A stretch of 64,000 nt of DNA, from IMG/VR virus record IMGVR_UViG_3300028536_000014, positions 1 to 64,000 of that record. One strand, given 5' to 3'. The notes beneath the pieces are model-generated. The model ran no database searches. It was not told the DNA's origin and worked only from the letters and a program-made list of their open reading frames with translations. Below, piece after piece: positions 4,669 through 50,387 of this stretch. Made by a program: the position numbers and the translations under genes. The first letter of the stretch is position 1. Each line of letters begins with the position of its first letter. Source of the DNA: a virus.

Positions 4669-5742
4669 TTATAGTTCCAAATATGTCAATAAAAGCTGTT
4701 TAATGGCAAGGTTCAAAATGGTTAGATGATGAACCAATCCAGAATATTTCATCAGACAATGATGGAGAGAAATAAAGATCTCCGCTCTTTCAACTACCAG
4801 CTTCGAAATCAAATCAGGCTTATCAGAGATTGCTTTGGCTTCTACAGCCAGATCCGTAACGATTTTCAATCTAGCGATAAGATCTTGATAAAATTCATTC
4901 AACTTTGAACTTATATTAGGACTCATGACAAATGTCATTAAATCAACCATCGATACTTCGCTATCGTCATCAAGACCAACAATTATATCAAAGAATAACT
5001 TAGCGTGATGACAGTTGAAAACTTCTTTGATAGCTTTTAGTGCATCTGTAAACTCACTAATGGAATTAAGATGTGTATTGATCAAAGATGTATCAAATCT
5101 TAAAAGATTGATCTTATTCAAATCTATGAACACTCCATCTTTTAAAGGAATCGTGCTGTTAGGGTTACCAAGAATTTTCTCATGATTGACTTGTAATTCA
5201 GAACGTAATGATTCTGAAATACGAATCAAACCAGGTAGATAGTTTTCTTTAATAGAAGTAATCATTGAAAAAGTATCAGTTAAAGGACCTTCAATATAGG
5301 TTTTGAAAAGATCCATCAACTGGGCTTCTTCTTTAGCGACAATTGATTTTACATAGACTTGAGTTTCTTTATACCCAACTTTGGTAGGGATATGTGTAAA
5401 CCCATTTTTCGGAACAACTGAAAACAGTTCTGTAAATGACTCTGCCATGATTTCAGCACGACCAGAATCAATTGTACCCGATTTAGAAATATCATTATCA
5501 ATATCTTTCAAAGATATGAGTTTGATATTCTGATCTTCTACAAGTTTGAATTCTATTGATAAATCTGGAATATTAAATAACGCTTCCAAATCAGGATTGG
5601 GAATCATCGGAATCTTACTTGGTTCTAAGAAAATCTTAGGGTCTGTATTAGACTTAAATATTGGTGATTTGATAACAGAAAGATCGGGTTCATTTCCAGA
5701 ACTTACATCAGGAAATAATGGATCGTAATCGACGATACTCAT
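4669..5742 (-). CDS. Hypothetical protein, helical
   Basis: 357 residues, not recognised. The first 60 residues are Pro/Asp/Ser-rich and probably disordered; the remainder is predicted helical, with long Leu/Ile-rich stretches. Its ATG overlaps the stop of the upstream gene as TAATG, indicating translational coupling with the 167-residue protein and the metallopeptidase in one minus-strand operon. No catalytic motif is seen. Confidence 0.6.
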   Translation of the reverse strand: MSIVDYDPLFPDVSSGNEPDLSVIKSPIFKSNTDPKIFLEPSKIPMIPNPDLEALFNIPDLSIEFKLVEDQNIKLISLKDIDNDISKSGTIDSGRAEIMAESFTELFSVVPKNGFTHIPTKVGYKETQVYVKSIVAKEEAQLMDLFKTYIEGPLTDTFSMITSIKENYLPGLIRISESLRSELQVNHEKILGNPNSTIPLKDGVFIDLNKINLLRFDTSLINTHLNSISEFTDALKAIKEVFNCHHAKLFFDIIVGLDDDSEVSMVDLMTFVMSPNISSKLNEFYQDLIARLKIVTDLAVEAKAISDKPDLISKLVVERAEIFISLHHCLMKYSGLVHHLTILNLAIKQLLLTYLEL

Positions 5743-6245
5743 TAAGTAACCTGATCGTTCGGTTTTCCATCAAAAAACCCAATCTCTGTTGTCAGTTGTG
5801 TGAGATTCAAGATATCGGTAAGAATCGAGACATGATCTTTCTCGATGATTGCTAAATCTTCTTTGGAAAAGAAACGTGTGATACCAAAGAAATCAGCAAT
5901 AGCAGTTTCCTTAGAATGCACCACATTCATCCACCCGTTCCAACACGTCTGTGATTGACGATATTGATATAACTTGGCGGTATAGTACAATACTTTATCA
6001 ATATCCAATTTCAACATTTCATTGAGATCATTCAGCTTACCAACAAGTTTGATCCCATAAGTACGAACAAAATAATGTTCATCAGGAGTTTCGTTGGCAT
6101 TATAAGCCGCTGTTTCCATCGCATTGATGAGAACGCACGCCATTGCGAAGCTGAAAGAATCTGAACGAGAACGTGCTGTTCCTACAAAAGAGAAAATGAA
6201 ATCCTGAGACTTTCGGCACAGCCGGTTCATTGCATACATGGTCAT
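5742..6245 (-). CDS. Hypothetical protein
   Basis: 167 residues, ATG with AAGGAT ribosome-binding site. Not recognised. A short Ser/Arg patch (TARSRSDSFS) near residue 23 precedes a hydrophobic helix, then helical text with several Trp/Tyr. It lies between the metallopeptidase (18 nt upstream) and the 357-residue protein (1-nt stop/start overlap), so the three are likely co-expressed. Confidence 0.6.
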   Translation of the reverse strand: MTMYAMNRLCRKSQDFIFSFVGTARSRSDSFSFAMACVLINAMETAAYNANETPDEHYFVRTYGIKLVGKLNDLNEMLKLDIDKVLYYTAKLYQYRQSQTCWNGWMNVVHSKETAIADFFGITRFFSKEDLAIIEKDHVSILTDILNLTQLTTEIGFFDGKPNDQVT

Positions 6246-6263: not shown

Positions 6264-7664
6264 TTACGTATGGGCAACACGAAGTGAAGCAGATGCAAGA
6301 TACAAATCACTGGCAGAAAGATCCTCTAATAATCGTTGAAGTTGAATATCGTTCTGAGAATCTTTGTGGCCTGGTGTGAAGAAATCAATAAGAAGTGTCA
6401 CCAGATTTTTATATTCGTTTTTATTTTGGATAATTTCATCCAGAAGTTTAATCTGATCAATGGTTTCTTTGACCTGATGTTCAGGAAGATCACTATCTTT
6501 AAGTAAGAAAATTAATTGATTTCGAACTCTTTGATAACGATGTTTCAGATCATCATAAGTCATTGGTTTAATATAGGTGGAATGACTGATTACGTATGAA
6601 CCTAATACCACACCTGCTATTAAAGAATAAAAAACAAATCCAGTACCAGTTAACAATGATGTCACTCCAGCACCAATAATAAATAAAAAGGCTTCGAAGA
6701 ATAATGATAAAAATAGAAATGTCCAAATCGTAATTAAAAGAATACTTCCAATTGACCAAAGGATGCTTCCAGCTAGAGATTGATCAGGATTCAAGAATCC
6801 AGAACCCTGCATTTTATCCAACGCAGCAATTAAATCAGGACCATACCCCCAACGTGAGGTAAAGTTATCTGCTAATGTTTCACTAGCATTATCATTATAA
6901 CGGTCATTCGGCATCTGACTTTCAATTGTTTCTTTTAAAAACTTCATGGTTCGACGACCAAGGATAGTATTGCTTCCAGAAAAGATCTTATCCAGTTCTT
7001 CGTTGGTTGTCTTTGGATTCAATATTTTAAGTTCTTTGAAAATATAGTCTTTTGACAAATCCTTTTTATTAACGGTATCTTTCAAAAGCTGAGATAGAAC
7101 TTGATTATTCGAATTTAATCGATTAGAATATTCATAGGCAGTAAAACAATGTCCTAATTCATGAAGAAAAATCGCTGTCACCATTCCAGGTGATAATTTC
7201 CATTTCAGGAATGTTTGAATATTTACATGAAGTGGATTTGTATACTCAGAAAAGATACCGGATACTTCACACTTTTGAATATCCACGATTCCTTTTTGTT
7301 CCAACGCTTGATCGATAATTTTAAGCTGTTTGGATAAAAAAGCTCGACTTAAAGGGCCGTCGTACAAATTACCTCTAAGTTGTTTATTAATAATCGAAGA
7401 ATATTCATTTGGATAAAATGGAATAACCGCACCAGGTAATCCATTTGGAATGAGATCCAATTTGATCCCCATTCGTTTAAACGTGAGTTCTTCGATAGCT
7501 TTAACGTTAGGATGTTCTTTCCACCTTCGATATTGATTTGGATTTTCTGAAAAATCTTTCATCAAAATACTGAACAATACTTCTATATCTCGAGCATAAG
7601 AATCCGACTGAAAGTCGATCATCTCAAGAGAGACGGTTGTATCCCTCTCATAAAACTTAGTCAT
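6264..7664 (-). CDS. Membrane zinc metallopeptidase (HELGH)
   Basis: 466 residues with a gluzincin-type HExxH motif (FLHELGHCF, residues about 166-174). A later acidic ETLAD segment (near residue 264) could supply the third zinc ligand. Residues about 300-365 hold two to three hydrophobic spans (ILWSIGSILLITIWTFLF, then further segments), so the enzyme is likely membrane-anchored with its catalytic domain N-terminal to the anchors. Substrate is unknown: maturation of phage proteins or action at the host membrane are both possible. A strong ribosome-binding site (GAGGGGA) precedes the ATG. The HExxH motif is seen; activity is inferred. Confidence 0.75.
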   Translation of the reverse strand: MTKFYERDTTVSLEMIDFQSDSYARDIEVLFSILMKDFSENPNQYRRWKEHPNVKAIEELTFKRMGIKLDLIPNGLPGAVIPFYPNEYSSIINKQLRGNLYDGPLSRAFLSKQLKIIDQALEQKGIVDIQKCEVSGIFSEYTNPLHVNIQTFLKWKLSPGMVTAIFLHELGHCFTAYEYSNRLNSNNQVLSQLLKDTVNKKDLSKDYIFKELKILNPKTTNEELDKIFSGSNTILGRRTMKFLKETIESQMPNDRYNDNASETLADNFTSRWGYGPDLIAALDKMQGSGFLNPDQSLAGSILWSIGSILLITIWTFLFLSLFFEAFLFIIGAGVTSLLTGTGFVFYSLIAGVVLGSYVISHSTYIKPMTYDDLKHRYQRVRNQLIFLLKDSDLPEHQVKETIDQIKLLDEIIQNKNEYKNLVTLLIDFFTPGHKDSQNDIQLQRLLEDLSASDLYLASASLRVAHT

Positions 7665-21670: not shown

Positions 21671-23825
21671 CGTCTCTTTCCTGAATATACTGATTAATTT
21701 CCGGTAAATACTCAGGTTTAAATCCAGCACACATGAAGATATGATTCACAATCTGAATAGGACGAGAAGCACCTAGTGGTATTACATCACGATCAATAAT
21801 CCGACTAATCTGACTAGGATTATTAGATGCCAATAAATTCCAGTAAATGTTACGACGTGTTACAGGATTGTTAGTCCGATCGAACATTTCCGCAATAGAT
21901 TCGGCTCCAGTATAGCAAGCAAAGATTCGAGATTCAGTTTCTCCAGAAAGACGAGTTGGAGAATTACGATAAGGGTAAGCGAATTTCTCGGATTTAGTTA
22001 CGGAAGAAAGAATGCCGAAATGTTGTAGTCTAGCAGTAGAAGTTGCAGACCATTCACTTGCTAACTTATCCAGAAGGAACATATAAACCTTTCCGATTCT
22101 GATCTTCTTAACTGTTTCAACTTGTTGACCTGATTGGTCAACATATTTAACTGTTGTTCTAGTTGGTTTAAATAGTTGTTCGATTTCTGGAACAATTTGA
22201 TCAGGTAATTTCTTGTTATCTACCGGTAAGAATATCTTACAGGTCCCGTCGTTAATGATGTCACATAGATGTTCAGATTGTTCATTGCGAGATAAAGCAC
22301 TGAAATAATCCGGCATGATATCATTGAAAACACGATAGAAACTCATCAAGTAATCGTAACACTCTAAAAACAGTTCTTGATTTATTTCTAATAACATTTC
22401 TTGATTGACTTCTGGACGCTTATTAAAATCATCAATATGATTTGTTGGTATAATTCCCAACTGTTGTGTAATACGAACAGTAATGTCGTGACAAGCACAG
22501 GTCATATATTGTTCATAAGACTGACCAATATTCATTCGGTGGAAAACCGGACCTGGATCGATAATCATGTCGGCACGAACACCATCAGGACGAATAGGCA
22601 TTTCGTGATCTTCCATGATTTTACAAACGACACCTTTACTTCCGCTTTGATTACTAAACTTATCTCCAATATTTGGAATCAGTTCATATTCGATTACAAA
22701 TTTAGCGTGATACTCATCAATATGTTCTTTTCGATAAATGAGTTTCAATGTTTGTTTCATTTTCTCAGCGTTATGATTTGTGATCGCAAGTGCTCTGACC
22801 AGAATCTTATTAAACGCAGGACTGATATTAATAAACGGTGTTCCAAACTTACGTTTACGTTCAGATCGTAAACGTTCTTCTGTTTCTACTATTTCACGAT
22901 TATAACGTAGAAATGCTTGGACATACTTATCAGCATGATCCGACATTCCAACAGGTGTATTTCGAATAGGGTTATTATTCGAAATGATTTCTATATCGAT
23001 AACACGACCACGTCCTTGACGAACATAAATCTGTTTATCAAATGTATAGTCAATTTCACGCATATCGTTGATACCCATATCAACAACATAGGTATCTGGG
23101 TCATAGGTACGTAGCGCCATCAATAATCCATCTTCTCGAAGATAATCTCCGATGTCTGGAAATGGTTTATTATCACCATAGATATTGATAGGAAATTCAT
23201 TACTTCCCCATTCAACAACACGAGTGTCATAAACTTTATATTTCCAATTCTCAAGTTCCCCACGACGAACAGCGATACCATCTTCAGAAACACCTGGGAT
23301 AGCCATATAGGTTACGTTAACATTACGACCATATGCGTAATTATTTCCGTCTTTAACACCAGGGCTATCCATGAAAACTGTATCTTTAGGAATATAAGTA
23401 GTGTGGCGTAAAAGATCCATTCCTTGTTGAGGGACACAACTCCAACCGAAATACTGATGGAAACTTCGATAAATCGGAATCATAAAACAATCGATTTCTC
23501 CAGTTTCCGAATTTTCATAGATAACCAGAGATTCGGGATTAAGTTTTAAACTATCCTGACCTACACCTTGAGGATATCGATCTATTACCTTAATGATCTT
23601 GCCATTGGCAGGCATGCGAACACCCAAGGTATATTTTGCCAATTCAGATTCAGGACCAGCTTGGATAATCTTTTCTTCCAATCCGTTAGTGATCAAATGC
23701 TGACTGACATGACTTGCCATCATCACTGAACGTGAGCTTGAGTTATTGATTGCGAAAGGGTTAATCGCATGGATCCCCAAAAACTGAGGACGAATCTCGT
23801 TTACTCTATCACTCTGTTTTTCCAA
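21657..23825 (-). CDS. RNA polymerase beta C-terminal half
   Basis: About 722 residues. GDKFSNQSGSKGVVCKI (about 390) matches the bacterial beta GDKMAGRHGNKGVISKI catalytic lysine block, and FHRMNIGQSYEQ (about 432) matches PSRMNIGQILE. The C-terminal part YMFLLDKLASEWSATSTARLQ corresponds to the switch and clamp-contact segment. Together with the beta-prime piece downstream it forms an operon of one phage multi-subunit RNA polymerase. The TTG at 23825 has AGGAG at good distance; the TTG at 23831 is too close to it. The beta N-terminal half is not recognised in the window. Confidence 0.85.
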   Translation of the reverse strand: MEKQSDRVNEIRPQFLGIHAINPFAINNSSSRSVMMASHVSQHLITNGLEEKIIQAGPESELAKYTLGVRMPANGKIIKVIDRYPQGVGQDSLKLNPESLVIYENSETGEIDCFMIPIYRSFHQYFGWSCVPQQGMDLLRHTTYIPKDTVFMDSPGVKDGNNYAYGRNVNVTYMAIPGVSEDGIAVRRGELENWKYKVYDTRVVEWGSNEFPINIYGDNKPFPDIGDYLREDGLLMALRTYDPDTYVVDMGINDMREIDYTFDKQIYVRQGRGRVIDIEIISNNNPIRNTPVGMSDHADKYVQAFLRYNREIVETEERLRSERKRKFGTPFINISPAFNKILVRALAITNHNAEKMKQTLKLIYRKEHIDEYHAKFVIEYELIPNIGDKFSNQSGSKGVVCKIMEDHEMPIRPDGVRADMIIDPGPVFHRMNIGQSYEQYMTCACHDITVRITQQLGIIPTNHIDDFNKRPEVNQEMLLEINQELFLECYDYLMSFYRVFNDIMPDYFSALSRNEQSEHLCDIINDGTCKIFLPVDNKKLPDQIVPEIEQLFKPTRTTVKYVDQSGQQVETVKKIRIGKVYMFLLDKLASEWSATSTARLQHFGILSSVTKSEKFAYPYRNSPTRLSGETESRIFACYTGAESIAEMFDRTNNPVTRRNIYWNLLASNNPSQISRIIDRDVIPLGASRPIQIVNHIFMCAGFKPEYLPEINQYIQERDDEDN

Positions 23826-23885
23826 AACCAAACTCCTTTAATAGTTTTATACATCAACAAAGAAAAACCAGCATCAGCTATCATT

Positions 23886-40275: not shown

Positions 40276-41193
40276 TCATTGAACGATGTAATCGTGTTCA
40301 ATCGTTCCTAGTTCTCGTTGACCTCTAAAATGCCTAGGGATCACTGTAACCCACCAGCCTGTTTTACCTTTCCATTCTTTGTTTTCCATCCATTTAGAAT
40401 TCTCAGTTTGAGCTTCAAAATGACGAAGATGTGATCGGCAGCTATGAAGTCGTTTAGGTGAACCACTTCCTCCATTTTGACCTTTTAATAATTCACGATC
40501 AACAATTGTAACCGTTCGATACCCATCCATCGGGGTTCTATTGTTCTTAATACATTTCTTATTAAGAACAGAAGAAGGCACAATTTGATTAATCCTGGTG
40601 GATTTAGAATTAATCATTAGTGTTAAATAGAAAAATATCACTTGACGATTGACTGTTTCCTCTATGAGTTTTTCTTTCGAATCACCGGTTTGTTGTTCAG
40701 CTAGAGCAAAATCAAAATGAGGTATGTCTGAGCGGATTTGGCCATATTTTCCGTCAGTAATAAACCATTCTATCATGATCGGACTCAACCCTATCTTTTC
40801 TTTTCCAACACCGTTGAGTATAAAATAAAACATTTTCCAGCTTTTCTTAATACCAGTAATATCAGCCGGAATAGTTTTATTTTCGTTAATAAACTCGCTG
40901 GTATCATAAACCAAAAGCCCGTAATGAATCGAATCACTACGAGTCTTATCAGGTATCTTAACTTCATACCAAACGACTTCACCTGGAGTCGGAATCAATC
41001 CTTCACTAAACCATTCTTTTTCGTATAATTCAAGTTTAGGAATCGGTTCACCAACAACAAATGGGACGGACTGGAATTCAACTTTTTCTGCTTTCTTCAA
41101 TAAAGCAATGAGTGCTAAGAAAAAGTCTTCATTATTATGTTGAGTTTTTCTTACACGTTCAAGTAAATAATCAGTAACTCTATGAGCTTGCAT
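40276..41193 (-). CDS. Hypothetical protein with Arg/His-rich C-terminus
   Basis: 305 residues, CAGGAG upstream. The C-terminal 75 residues are basic (RLHSCRSHLRHF, then WWVTVIPRHFRGQ), a pattern recalling phage proteins with a RRSHxRxxH...WVxPxxVG ending. The N-terminal part is helical. Promoter-like motif at 41241. No function known. Confidence 0.6.
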   Translation of the reverse strand: MQAHRVTDYLLERVRKTQHNNEDFFLALIALLKKAEKVEFQSVPFVVGEPIPKLELYEKEWFSEGLIPTPGEVVWYEVKIPDKTRSDSIHYGLLVYDTSEFINENKTIPADITGIKKSWKMFYFILNGVGKEKIGLSPIMIEWFITDGKYGQIRSDIPHFDFALAEQQTGDSKEKLIEETVNRQVIFFYLTLMINSKSTRINQIVPSSVLNKKCIKNNRTPMDGYRTVTIVDRELLKGQNGGSGSPKRLHSCRSHLRHFEAQTENSKWMENKEWKGKTGWWVTVIPRHFRGQRELGTIEHDYIVQ

Positions 41194-41240
41194 ATTAGGC
41201 TCCTGAGGATGGAATTAGAAAAACGTTGTTAATCTTCAAT

Positions 41241-41266
41241 TAGAGTATGTATGATTGAAATAATTT
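41241..41266 (-). promoter_or_regulatory. Phage promoter-like motif
   Basis: The minus strand reads TTTCAATCATACATACTCTA, nearly identical to the copy at 49970. Confidence 0.7.
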
Positions 41267-41639: not shown

Positions 41640-41679
41640 GTCACATTTCCTTTTTAAATGAGATTAGATAATTCTCACT

Positions 41680-46315: not shown

Positions 46316-47533
46316 TTACCGACGCTGCCAGTTCCCTTCTTTTGCTACCCGATGCTTTTTCAGAAGTACTCCCTCCGAATATTCAGACGCCACCGGAAGA
46401 CCTTCAGCCGTACGATACGCGGTATAAAAATCCACCAAGAACCGTTTGACACAGAACCGAAGAGCCATGCGATGCTTCTGCAGAGGAGACTTTCCAGCAT
46501 GCTTAGGATTGTTTCCAAGCCGTTCCTTGTAGTTGTAGTAGGCCATCCCGTACGGAGAACCTTCACGCTCAACTGTGAAGCCCTGTCCCATCAGGAAATC
46601 ATTGATGACAGAGTTGGGATCTTCTTCGCCGATGGTCTTCTTGTCGAGTCCATGCTCAACAGCCAGCTCGAGACGTTTTGCCATACCCATTGCTTTGCCG
46701 TTGACCTTGAAAGAGGTCACCTTGAGGAATGCCGGTCCGATGACACCCAACAGCTTGGTTTTGAGGAACGGAGAATAGGTAATGGAATCACGAACAGCTG
46801 GGTTGTCGTTCTTGTCGATGTAGTCACGCTTCACCAACGAGTAGGACTTCATGTCACGTGCAACGCCCACCACATTGCACACCACACCCTTGTGAAAGAA
46901 CACGCCGTCCATGTTTTCCAACTCCGGAGCGTTCATCGCCTGTTCGAACGAAAGCCTGATGGTCTTGTTACCGACTTCGTATTCCACCACCTGGACGACA
47001 TCCAAACCACCGTACGCCCAAAGACTGGACGGGTACTCGGCCTTGTGGATGTCGATCTCGGAGATGAGAACACCAGCCGCTGCCGGGCCGATACCTGCTA
47101 CGCCTTGAAGAAAGTTCTTGTAGACAGGAACCGTTTTGAGCATGATGCCGATGTCAGCGAAGTGCTGCTCTTCGACGTCCAGAATCTTGACGTAGTTCTC
47201 GATCAGGAACAATTCGGCCATGTTGGTGATCAAATCGTCGGGTTGGAAATTGCGTTCCATCTGCAGACGTGTGACCATCTTGCCGCCGGTGATCTCGATG
47301 ATGCCGTCAGTTATACGATTGTAGGAATCACGCAGACGCTTCAGGATACCCTTTTCCTGAGCTCCGAGTTCCTTCTCAGACATGCCGTCGGTCGACATTC
47401 CAAGTTTGGTTCTGAAATTGCCAGCGGTGCGGTTACCGATCATGATACGCAGCTGCTGAAGATCGTAAACCGAACGAACCATCGTCCGAATCTGGGATCT
47501 TTGATATGCGGTGTTTGATGTGGGGTTACTCAC
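46316..47533 (-). CDS. IS110-like (Transposase_20, HhH) protein without RuvC domain
   Basis: 405 residues, GTG start with TAAGGAG upstream. Residues about 143-180 (GVAGIGPAAAGVLISEI, then LWAYGGLDV) match the helix-hairpin-helix start of the Transposase_20 domain of IS110/IS116 transposases. SPFLKTKLLGVIGPAFLKV (about 254-272) and the NPKHAGKS...ALRFCVKRFLVDFY end (342-370) also fit the family. The N-terminal 90 residues are helical and charged; the usual RuvC-like DEDD domain (GIDVSK-type opening) is not visible. No SG-type catalytic serine block is obvious after AYGGL. The gene is clearly more GC-rich than its neighbours. It lies directly downstream, in transcription sense, of the 36-nt array. 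Known: IS110 enzymes use a bridge RNA. Whether this one is a recombinase or a domesticated binder is open. Confidence 0.75.
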   Translation of the reverse strand: MSNPTSNTAYQRSQIRTMVRSVYDLQQLRIMIGNRTAGNFRTKLGMSTDGMSEKELGAQEKGILKRLRDSYNRITDGIIEITGGKMVTRLQMERNFQPDDLITNMAELFLIENYVKILDVEEQHFADIGIMLKTVPVYKNFLQGVAGIGPAAAGVLISEIDIHKAEYPSSLWAYGGLDVVQVVEYEVGNKTIRLSFEQAMNAPELENMDGVFFHKGVVCNVVGVARDMKSYSLVKRDYIDKNDNPAVRDSITYSPFLKTKLLGVIGPAFLKVTSFKVNGKAMGMAKRLELAVEHGLDKKTIGEEDPNSVINDFLMGQGFTVEREGSPYGMAYYNYKERLGNNPKHAGKSPLQKHRMALRFCVKRFLVDFYTAYRTAEGLPVASEYSEGVLLKKHRVAKEGNWQRR

Positions 47534-47942
47534 AATGATACTCCTTAGATTGATCTCACCTTTTTATTAAGGATGAGAAGATTGGCTTAACAGCTGGATG
47601 AAACGTTGACAACTCTGAATTCGGTTGATGCGCTACTTTCTATTGGTTTGCTTATACGCGTTGACACACTACGAGCAGATGGATGTCTTTTTTCACGTGA
47701 TTGAAACGTTGATGTCCTTTGGGGAAATCAGTTTATTTGACACACTTGTACGTCATGGGTGAATATCTAATTATGATGCACTAAATCCTTCTGGGTTACT
47801 AGCCAATAGAAATACGCTTAGTGTCGTTGTGTGAACACATTTCAATGACCTGACACGCTTTCATAGTGCGGATTACTACTTTTCATTGACACACTTGCTT
47901 ACATTGGGTAGCTATGAGAAGGTGATTGCACTGAACTCTCAC

Positions 47943-47968
47943 ATAAAGTATATGTGACTGAAATTGTT
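47943..47968 (-). promoter_or_regulatory. Promoter-like motif inside the array
   Basis: The minus strand reads TTTCAGTCACATATACTTTA, one mismatch from the consensus core. It replaces about two array units and points to the IS110-like gene 410 nt away, through the last units. Confidence 0.65.
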
Positions 47969-49317
47969 TCAGAATGGAGCGCTGTATCTTTAAGGTTTAC
48001 TCACGATCAGTTGACACACTTTTTCTCAATGGGTGACTAATTAGGGTTGATACACTAATCGAAAATGGGTGAATACGTCCTTTTGATACGTTAACGTCGT
48101 TTGGATTTACTTACGGCGTATGACTCACTTTTTTCCAATGGATAACTATGGATCGTTGGAACACTTTAACTTGCTGGATGAATTGCAGAAGATAGTGAAA
48201 CACTAGAATCTCGTGGATGGATACTTCCCGTTGATGCGTTTATCTGATATGGATGTCTACTGATGGTTAACACACGCTCGCGCTATTGGGTTTATTATTT
48301 CCACAGACACGTTCGTTGACACTGAGTGAATAAATTACTATGACACGTTCTGTACTTGTGGATGACTCTGGCGACAATAACACACTCGCTTATATTGGAT
48401 TACTTTGATATAATGATACATTCGCTGATTTTGATGGATAACTCGAATTCCATGACACATTCAAATACTAAGGTTGACTCTGATTCTTTAACACGTTTTA
48501 TCTTAGTGGATGTCTACAACCCAATGACACAATTAATCTTTGAAGGGTTTCTTTTCTCTTCTAATGTTCACTCTTGATCTTTGGATGAATACAGATCAAT
48601 GATCCGCTAGTTCAAATTGGGTTACTTCCGTACATTGACACACTTTTGTTGACTGGATGTCTACCGACTGATGATGCACTTAGCATTTATGGATTACTAT
48701 ATGTAAAAGGTACGATCTTTGCCCTTGGGGTTCTGAGGAAACTTGACTCAATTGATCGTTTTGGTTGACTTCTTCTTCAAGTTACACTTGTCACTACTGG
48801 ATGTCATGTAGATTTTTATTCACATATCAAGCATGGTTATCTTTTCATCTTTGATACACTTTCCACTAGTGGGCGACTTTTAATTCCTGATACGTTTTAC
48901 GGTTATGGTTGACTATTTGTCTACGACACACTTGAACCCCATGGTTGACTAATTGTAGTTGATACAATAATAACATCTGGATTTTTTCCTTATATTGTTT
49001 CACTACTTAACATTGGGTTTATTACCGCGTATGGTGCGCTAACGTTCTTTGGGATACTTTATTGATTTGACACACTTTTGATCTTTGGGTCACTTTAGAT
49101 CACTAATTCACTAGCCGATATGTGGTTATCTTCTTCCTCTAGATACGTTTAACCACTATGAATGTCTTAACTTCTCTGACATACTTTATGGAGATGGGTT
49201 TCTTTAATGGAATGATACATTTACGCAATATGGGTTCATCTTGAGTGATGACACACTATCGTTCTTTGGTTGACTTTCAGACAGTGGTTCACTAGATACT
49301 TATGGAGATCTTTTTTT

Positions 49318-49328
49318 GGGGGGGGGGG
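49318..49328. repeat. Run of 11 G after 7 T within the array
   Basis: The tract T7-G11 (49311-49328) adds about 8 nt and shifts the array register once. It could be a slippage-prone tract or a sequencing/assembly error. Confidence 0.8.
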
Positions 49329-49950
49329 TGATTCGTTTCCTCATTATGGATTTCTATTTGACATTAACACATTAATTTTCGCTGGGTTTATTCACACCGA
49401 TAACACGATAGATGATATTGGGTTTCTCCAGCATTTAACACACTAAGCTAATTTGGGTGAATGGTTTTAATTGATACACTTCGTATCGATGGTTGAATTC
49501 CAACATTTGGTACATTTTACTTCGATGATTTTCTTGATCTCTTTGATGCGATTGTATTCAATGGTTGTCTACACACTTATGTCACATTAGGTTATTTTGG
49601 ATGACTTTTTGTCGATGACGCACTAACGCTACTTGGATAACTCGTTTTCGATGATACATTGTCAGTTCACTGGGTGACTGTCGTCTTTTGATGCACTTTG
49701 AAAGGGTAGGTTTATCGGAGTCTGTGATACACTAAACCTCTATGGTAGAATTATGGTTATTGATACACTTGAATATTTATGGGTTACTGATAGTCAATGA
49801 TATTCGCTGCGTTCTTCTGGTTGACTCACTAATGGTAACACATTTGGTTGCTATGGTGTTCTTTCTTCTTCAAATTACACTAATGAATCGTGAGAATATT
49901 TCTATTGTGATACACTTGTACCTAATGGATGAATCTTTTCCCATGATTAT

Positions 49951-49966
49951 GAGAACTCTCGTTCTC
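49951..49966 (-). promoter_or_regulatory. Small inverted repeat at the likely array RNA 5' end
   Basis: GAGAAC-TCTC-GTTCTC: a 6-bp hairpin just downstream of the promoter core, so it would form the 5' tip of an array transcript. Confidence 0.5.
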
Positions 49967-49969
49967 AAA

Positions 49970-49995
49970 TAGAGTATGTATGATTGAAATAATTT
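49970..49995 (-). promoter_or_regulatory. Promoter-like motif at array start
   Basis: The minus strand reads TTTCAATCATACATACTCTA, identical to the 41241 copy over this stretch. It directs transcription into the array and on to the IS110-like gene. Confidence 0.75.
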
Positions 49996-50007: not shown

Positions 50008-50033
50008 AGAGAAGAGACAAAAGTCTCTTCTCT
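50008..50033 (-). terminator. Terminator insulating the array promoter
   Basis: 11-bp arms AGAGAAGAGAC and complement, 4-nt loop, followed on the minus strand by TTTTTTTG. It ends the HTH-gene transcript just before the array promoter. Confidence 0.8.
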
Positions 50034-50054: not shown

Positions 50055-50387
50055 CTACATGATTACTCGGTCGGAAAGACCGTCAATCACGCTATTGATC
50101 AACTCAGGATGCTTGTTGATCAACGTCAATACAAGACACTCGATATCATCCGGAGTCTTCTGCCCCGTTTCCCACCGCTGCATCGAGCCAGATGCAAACC
50201 CGTAGTAATTTTCAAATTCTCGTCGGGTAAGATCAGTCCGTGTCCGCGTAACCATGATGTTGAAAGGAGTTAACATCATAGCTTCACGAGTGGGTTTTCG
50301 ATCACCCACTGTACATTCCACTATTTCTTTGAGACCACGCAAAACAACTGCTTGCATTCCTTCAGACTGCCAGCCTTCATGTTGCAT
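50055..50387 (-). CDS. HTH regulator, Xre/NadS-like
   Basis: 110 residues with AGGGGG upstream. Residues about 52-95 (DLTRREFENYYGFASGSMQR, then WETGQKTPDD) form an Xre-type helix-turn-helix resembling NadS/HigA-type antitoxin regulators (LTQxEFAxxLGVSxxTVQRWExGxxxP). No toxin gene is adjacent. It sits at the right edge of the repeat array and is more GC-rich than the surroundings, like the IS110-like gene, so it may regulate that locus; that is inference. Confidence 0.75.
   Translation of the reverse strand: MQHEGWQSEGMQAVVLRGLKEIVECTVGDRKPTREAMMLTPFNIMVTRTRTDLTRREFENYYGFASGSMQRWETGQKTPDDIECLVLTLINKHPELINSVIDGLSDRVIM

Follow-up and report, generated by a model that had tools for sequence, protein, structure and literature searches.

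A phiKZ-like jumbo phage with a TIGR-TasA operon behind a predicted phage promoter and leader

Introduction

In TIGR-Tas systems, the repeating unit of the array comprises an edge repeat, spacer A, a loop repeat and spacer B, 36 nt in total, and published arrays usually hold 5–15 units (Faure et al. 2025, PMC12045711). The Tas protein is needed for processing of the guide RNA (tigRNA) and is not itself the cutter, and the discovery paper leaves open the role of such systems in phages, the growth of the arrays and the synthesis of the precursor (PMC12045711). In jumbo phages that encode an RNA polymerase, a conserved AT-rich motif centred near −10 fronts early operons and is read by the virion polymerase, whereas bioinformatic prediction is not possible for middle and late promoters (PMC7598289). 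Here we describe a locus in positions 1–64000 (the window) of the 244,725-bp viral record IMGVR_UViG_3300028536_000014, which may be incomplete, where a predicted promoter at 49965–49989 precedes a TIGR array and a tas gene on the minus strand. We consider it very probable that this phage is a phiKZ-like jumbo phage in which the feature serves a TIGR-TasA operon as promoter and leader.

Results

Organization of the locus

In the order of the predicted transcription, the locus comprises the following elements.

50008–50033, minus strand: intrinsic terminator with an 11-bp stem, the loop UUUU and a following T-run (free energy −17.6 kcal/mol, z = −5.3)
49965–49989, minus strand: predicted phage promoter of the array (TTTCAATCATACATACTCTATTTGA), one of 22 genome-wide sites of the motif
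49950–49967, minus strand: 5′ leader hairpin UGAGAAC-GAGA-GUUCUCA, 7 bp with the loop GAGA
47626–49948, minus strand: TIGR array of 63 edge (AGTGTRTCA) and 63 loop (AGTMAYCCA) repeats, with homologous arrays in relatives
47939–47963, minus strand: internal promoter copy in the array, a perfect match to the consensus, with a leader hairpin at 47913–47943
46316–47533, minus strand: tasA, encoding a 405-residue Nop-domain TIGR-associated protein without a nuclease domain

The sequence itself shows the terminator and the class of promoter, the layout of the array and the strand of its RNA, the pairing between edges, the identity of the protein as a Tas that lacks a nuclease domain, and the operon order. 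The array was parsed on the minus strand by dynamic programming. The two repeat types, edge and loop, each about 9 nt long, strictly alternate with a period of 36 nt, and 105 of the 125 array spacers are exactly 9 nt long, which is the TIGR arrangement of two alternating 8–12-nt repeats with spacers of about 9 nt in a 36-nt unit. Both repeat types end in YCA, giving the box C at the 3′ end that typifies TIGR repeats, at the same positions as in the repeats AGCGAGCCA/AGACAACCA of SpTIGR. The array opens with a 5′-truncated edge, AATCA (49948–49944), as do the arrays of three relatives (L012, L016 and L018).

There is no protein gene between the promoter and 47533, consistent with a preliminary description of the window, made from the sequence alone, that placed the next gene about 2.4 kb beyond the motif. 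The predicted array RNA (A 37%, C 20%) folds no better than shuffles (z = +0.4; −161 kcal/mol versus −220 kcal/mol for the plus strand), as expected from the A/C-rich, weakly folded RNA that was proposed there. At 49318–49328, an 11-G run on the plus strand (C11A6 in the RNA sense) takes the place of a normal spacer, with a length of 17 nt; it is possibly a slippage site or an assembly error.

Polarity of the array RNA and the processed unit

Three independent lines of sequence evidence, namely the sense of the Salicola array, the covariation between edge repeats, and the arrangement in relatives, establish the predicted minus-strand polarity of the array RNA. First, repeat models trained on the window find the array of Salicola phage CGphi29 on the tas strand (score 271 versus 7), and the experimentally studied SpTIGR of this phage reads in the same sense as the minus-strand array. 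Second, there is covariation between position 6 of an edge repeat and position 3 of the one that follows (z = 66 across all arrays), and likewise between positions 7 and 2; no covariation of edge positions was seen within a single repeat. In the window, position 6 of one edge and position 3 of the next form a Watson-Crick or G.U pair in 58 of 62 cases, versus a mean of 48.2 and a maximum of 55 in 20,000 permutations. Third, the array stands beside tas in about 35 related viral loci, on the tas strand in all save one weak case (L054).

Since the covariation connects successive edges, the pairing is predicted to bring together the start and the end of a single 36-nt unit, in agreement with the tigRNA structure. 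It matches the extra pair, covarying between the two edge halves of a tigRNA, that is characteristic of TIGR systems. The preliminary description anticipated processing in 18- or 36-nt steps; the steps should be of 36 nt, at the edge repeats, and not of 18 nt. Both edge positions summed, the minus strand of the window array holds 39 G.U and 1 A.C; across 42 arrays, the first edge pair is Watson-Crick in 872 cases, G.U in 22 and A.C in 6, and the second is Watson-Crick in 506, G.U in 373 and A.C in 7. The excess of G.U over A.C implies that the RNA carries the minus-strand sequence. A matched change of the two repeat positions from unit to unit is seen in the window array, its closest relatives, and loci L055, L043, L047 and L065, and most other arrays hold one fixed edge pair.

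These data bear on two other readings of the repeats. The array could be read from the plus strand and end at the hairpin 50008–50033, whose plus side is also T-rich, but the edge pairs would then hold 39 A.C mismatches versus 1 G.U, SpTIGR and nearly all relatives lie in the tas sense, and the genome contains no plus-strand copy of the promoter motif; we regard this as very unlikely. It is even harder to credit a DNA element (iterons, partition sites or packaging sites) whose transcription is only incidental. Short repeats at regular spacing in a phage, for which no target was found, would suit such an element; however, covariation of adjacent edge halves in which G.U wobble is confined to a single strand is a signature of RNA, the 9-nt spacers are variable, and a Tas gene is linked in many genomes.

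A directional promoter motif fronts the array

The motif TTTCANTCANATATACTNTANNTGA has 22 sites on the minus strand and none on the forward strand in the whole record (at most 3 mismatches), and a reversed-pattern control gives none on either strand. All 8 sites in the window are intergenic; 6 lie directly upstream of a minus-strand open reading frame, and the remaining 2 front the array, at 49965–49989 and internally at 47939–47963. Related phage genomes carry a similar promoter motif. This directionality, together with the polarity evidence, supports the earlier proposal that a phage promoter drives the array as a minus-strand RNA. The single promoter recognized at that time does lie ahead of the array, but the internal copy was overlooked. 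The latter is located about 406 nt upstream of tasA, so tasA would not depend on the distal promoter alone.

The minus-strand segment 50008–49970 is identical to 41279–41241 over 39 nt; the identity itself had been noticed, but only over 20 nt. It is the sole dispersed exact repeat of at least 30 nt in the 64 kb, the other exact repeats being palindromes, and it shows that the hairpin-promoter cassette of the array recurs at 41 kb, where, as previously described, the motif precedes a protein gene.

41236–41260, minus strand: comparator promoter copy, with a terminator hairpin upstream and the protein gene 40276–41193 behind it

The sequence supports a role for the terminator at 50033–50008 in shielding the array from the upstream minus-strand gene, in line with the insulation proposed before. 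The hairpin downstream of the promoter is likewise present, although its stem is 7 bp and not 6 bp. Comparable TGAGA..TCTCA hairpins are also located 3′ of the internal promoter and of the promoter of a second, orphan array (see below). The idea that the leader hairpin is an array-specific element was dropped, a similar hairpin having been seen by eye behind the promoter at 41675.

By analogy with the jumbo-phage motif (PMC7598289), the array promoter would belong to the early class and initiate near 49965, a short distance from the start near 49962 suggested before. The motif is conserved and directional, and its placement in the early class, whose motif lies about 10 nt before mapped starts of early genes, is putative. 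Alternatively, the operon may be organized as proposed but with its promoter read by the host σ70 polymerase and not by a phage polymerase. TATACT is similar to a −10 element; however, a σ70 scan misses the array promoter and finds no more sites than in shuffles (7 versus 9.9), and the conserved TTTCA block that adjoins TATACT on its upstream side is foreign to σ70 promoters. Moreover, phiKZ-type phages transcribe their genes independently of the host polymerase (PMC10612078), and the present phage encodes a polymerase of its own. We therefore consider recognition by σ70 unlikely, and favour a phage-specific promoter.

TasA is a Nop-domain protein without a nuclease

The tasA product matches NCBIfam NF052498 (TIGR_Tas_endo) with an E-value of 3.2e-22; all 37 aligned family members also match this model, and the family profile detects the solved structures of TasR (9mty, E = 2e-22) and TasH (E = 2e-14). 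Pfam alone detected no Tas domain in the product. An AlphaFold2 model (pLDDT 86.6), which replaced a 7-sequence model judged too poor (pLDDT 55), can be superimposed on TasR with Z = 17.2 and a root-mean-square deviation of 2.0 over 192 residues (Z = 17–19 to TasR/TasH), and displays the Nop domain expected of a Tas protein. The alignment begins at TasR residue 111 and at about TasH residue 61–66, the N-terminus of the model is purely helical, and there is no N-terminal RuvC or HNH domain of the kind that defines the nuclease subtypes. Because the alignments begin past the RuvC and HNH regions, the nuclease is missing and the protein is assigned as TasA. Most family members have about 285 residues; additional segments, at residues of about 181–250 and 272–325, are present in the window protein and those most closely related to it.

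The preliminary description took this gene to be IS110-like, an assignment that the above results overturn. Under a corresponding explanation, the locus would belong to an insertion sequence: the gene would encode an IS110-family transposase, and the array would be the bridge-RNA or recombination-site region in expanded form. Weak matches to Pfam Transposase_20 (E = 0.026) and NCBIfam IS110 (E = 0.004), both below the cut-off, and an alignment of the model to the IS621 recombinase (Z about 13) could be taken in its favour. However, the IS621 alignment starts at residue 124 and the DEDD/RuvC catalytic domain is absent, TIGR_Tas fits far better, a 36-nt dual-repeat array adjoins tas in the relatives, and an IS110 bridge RNA is one two-stem unit (PMC12045711). 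An IS110 origin thus appears extremely improbable, and we retain the TasA assignment.

No relatives of the tasA product were found in GTDB genomes; the window protein matched none of the annotated phages, and one of its relatives matched two. In L066–L069, open reading frames of 63–67 residues resemble only the N-terminal helix (residues 13–78) of the Tas family, and no array was found near them.

Related arrays and an orphan array in the same genome

All six closest relatives, which are jumbo-phage-sized except for L018 (114 kb), carry their array (58, 35, 46, 25, 41 and 5 units) immediately 5′ of tas and in the same orientation. Three related phages (L013, L015 and L017) have 22–24 collinear units in common, with gains and losses of units scattered through the interior, in contrast to the leader-end growth of CRISPR arrays, and they permit a unit-by-unit study of TIGR array evolution. 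In units common to relatives, change in the spacers does not exceed that in the repeats and is often smaller (for example, 3–8% for spacer A versus 9–14% for the loop repeat), a comparison qualified by the pairing up of units by spacer similarity. The unit ATCTGCTCC/TTGTGATAG is common to four relatives and is identical in L012, the rest of whose array is almost entirely different.

In L018, a terminator-like hairpin separates the small five-unit array (5732–5935) from tas, which suggests attenuation of the tas message. The cultured Microcystis phage Mvi-JY20 (L021, PP438412.1), which has a known host, carries an apparent unannotated TIGR array at 6510–6860, with spacers of about 8–9 nt, directly after a 241-residue Tas-like gene and with a terminator at its end.

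Only two arrays were found in the whole genome, and the gene at 46–47.5 kb is its only Tas.

About 134.82–135.06 kb of the record (L010, about 6820–7100), minus strand: orphan TIGR array with six to seven units

The orphan array has the same promoter motif at 135,076–135,100 and its own upstream terminator-like hairpin, has no adjacent tas, and runs into a 293-residue gene without an assigned function. Since the genome has a single Tas, the orphan array would need Tas in trans. In addition to this promoter-bearing array at 135 kb, the perfect internal promoter and the interior unit turnover in the arrays of relatives are new observations.

Target searches and points against the proposed reading

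Several points weigh against our interpretation. The NF052498 score of 79.5 bits is below the NCBI curated cut-off of 100, the stability of the leader hairpins does not significantly exceed that of shuffles (z = −0.6 to −1.8), and the assignment to an early promoter read by a virion polymerase leans on the analogy with PMC7598289. Furthermore, 900 spacer pairs compared with 584 kb (the window and related loci) gave no excess of matches over re-paired spacers, counting exact and near matches in both geometries with gaps of 0–2.

Other searches gave a similar picture. Searched for in one geometry in seven phage genomes, the unit ATCTGCTCC/TTGTGATAG gave no site below 3 mismatches, and its matches in IMG/VR (3 + 1) are scattered, mutually unrelated and at chance level. 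Single 9-mer spacers occur 81 times in the window versus 99.9 expected, with no clear enrichment or avoidance. As spacer pairs show no excess in the window, in relatives or in each other's surroundings, self-regulation is not supported; the targets probably lie in hosts or rival elements outside the searched sequence.

Genome context

The terminase is 37% identical to its PhiPA3 and Psa21 counterparts, and a multisubunit-type phage RNA polymerase domain is encoded at 22059–23024 (E = 2e-18), in an open reading frame behind the promoter copy at 23881. On the basis of the terminase similarity and this polymerase domain, we classify the phage as a phiKZ-like jumbo phage. An MqsA-like helix-turn-helix protein (Pfam PF15731, E = 1e-7) is encoded at 50055–50387, just upstream of the array terminator. 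In L010 (2630–5197), the terminase large subunit is, by eye, apparently split by an intein-like insert (CFVGSTLVRTIKGNIPISELKIGD ... VNDILVHN). Rfam gave no matches across the whole window.

Discussion

Our analysis supports the preliminary description in substance, while showing it to be incomplete, and suggests the following model. The phage-specific promoter at 49989–49965 (minus strand), insulated by the terminator, would initiate a minus-strand transcript near 49965, presumably early and by the phage virion RNA polymerase. The distal transcript would comprise the 5′ hairpin, the 63-unit array and the tasA message, while the internal promoter (47963–47939) would yield a shorter transcript with the last units and tasA. 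Cleavage of the precursor would fall at the centre of the edge repeat, with one cut for each 36-nt unit, and would probably be made by a host RNase. A TasA dimer would hold each 36-nt tigRNA, which two pairs would close, one between edge position 6 and position 3 of the following edge and the other between 7 and 2. The complex may find 18-bp DNA sites, with one spacer for each strand. Since TasA has no nuclease, the complex should bind or bend these sites and not cleave them.

Tentatively, such jumbo phages may combine a large early bank of guides with a non-cutting TasA for multiplexed RNA-guided DNA binding, with an orphan array acting in trans, unit turnover throughout the array, and a matched closing pair in each tigRNA, a possibility that we consider less likely than not. 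The locus links a TIGR array to a leader and to a directional promoter specific to the phage, within the well-studied phiKZ-like transcription setting, offers sequence evidence on RNA polarity and the processed unit, and makes timing, processing and targets testable.

Like phiKZ-type early promoters, the window motif is AT-rich, conserved and located before operons in a phage with its own multisubunit RNA polymerase (PMC7598289), although its sequence differs and its starts are predicted ones. In contrast to the archaeal box C/D ribonucleoproteins (Nop5), the window system has neither fibrillarin nor L7Ae, and its presumed target is DNA, not RNA. With the IS110/IS621 recombinases it has in common the Nop-type RNA-binding fold (Z about 13), but it has no catalytic domain and no bridge RNA, and it has a many-guide array. 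The edge AGCGAGCCA and loop AGACAACCA of SpTIGR-TasH from Salicola phage CGphi29 (HQ634153) fit AGTGTRTCA and AGTMAYCCA in the same sense; that system, unlike the one described here, has an HNH nuclease and an 11-unit array downstream of tas with its own terminator.

With TIGR-TasA systems (PMC12045711), the locus shares a nuclease-less Nop-domain protein, an alternation of edge and loop repeats, each about 9 nt long, 9-nt spacers, a 36-nt period, a 5′-truncated first edge and a closing pair between successive edges. It differs in that its array has 63 units instead of the usual 5–15, its repeats are strongly degenerate, its closing pair varies from unit to unit, and its protein carries a Nop-domain insertion of about 115 residues relative to relatives of about 285 residues. 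It differs further in its array lying upstream of tas behind a phage promoter, with an additional internal promoter, and in a phage that carries an orphan array in trans.
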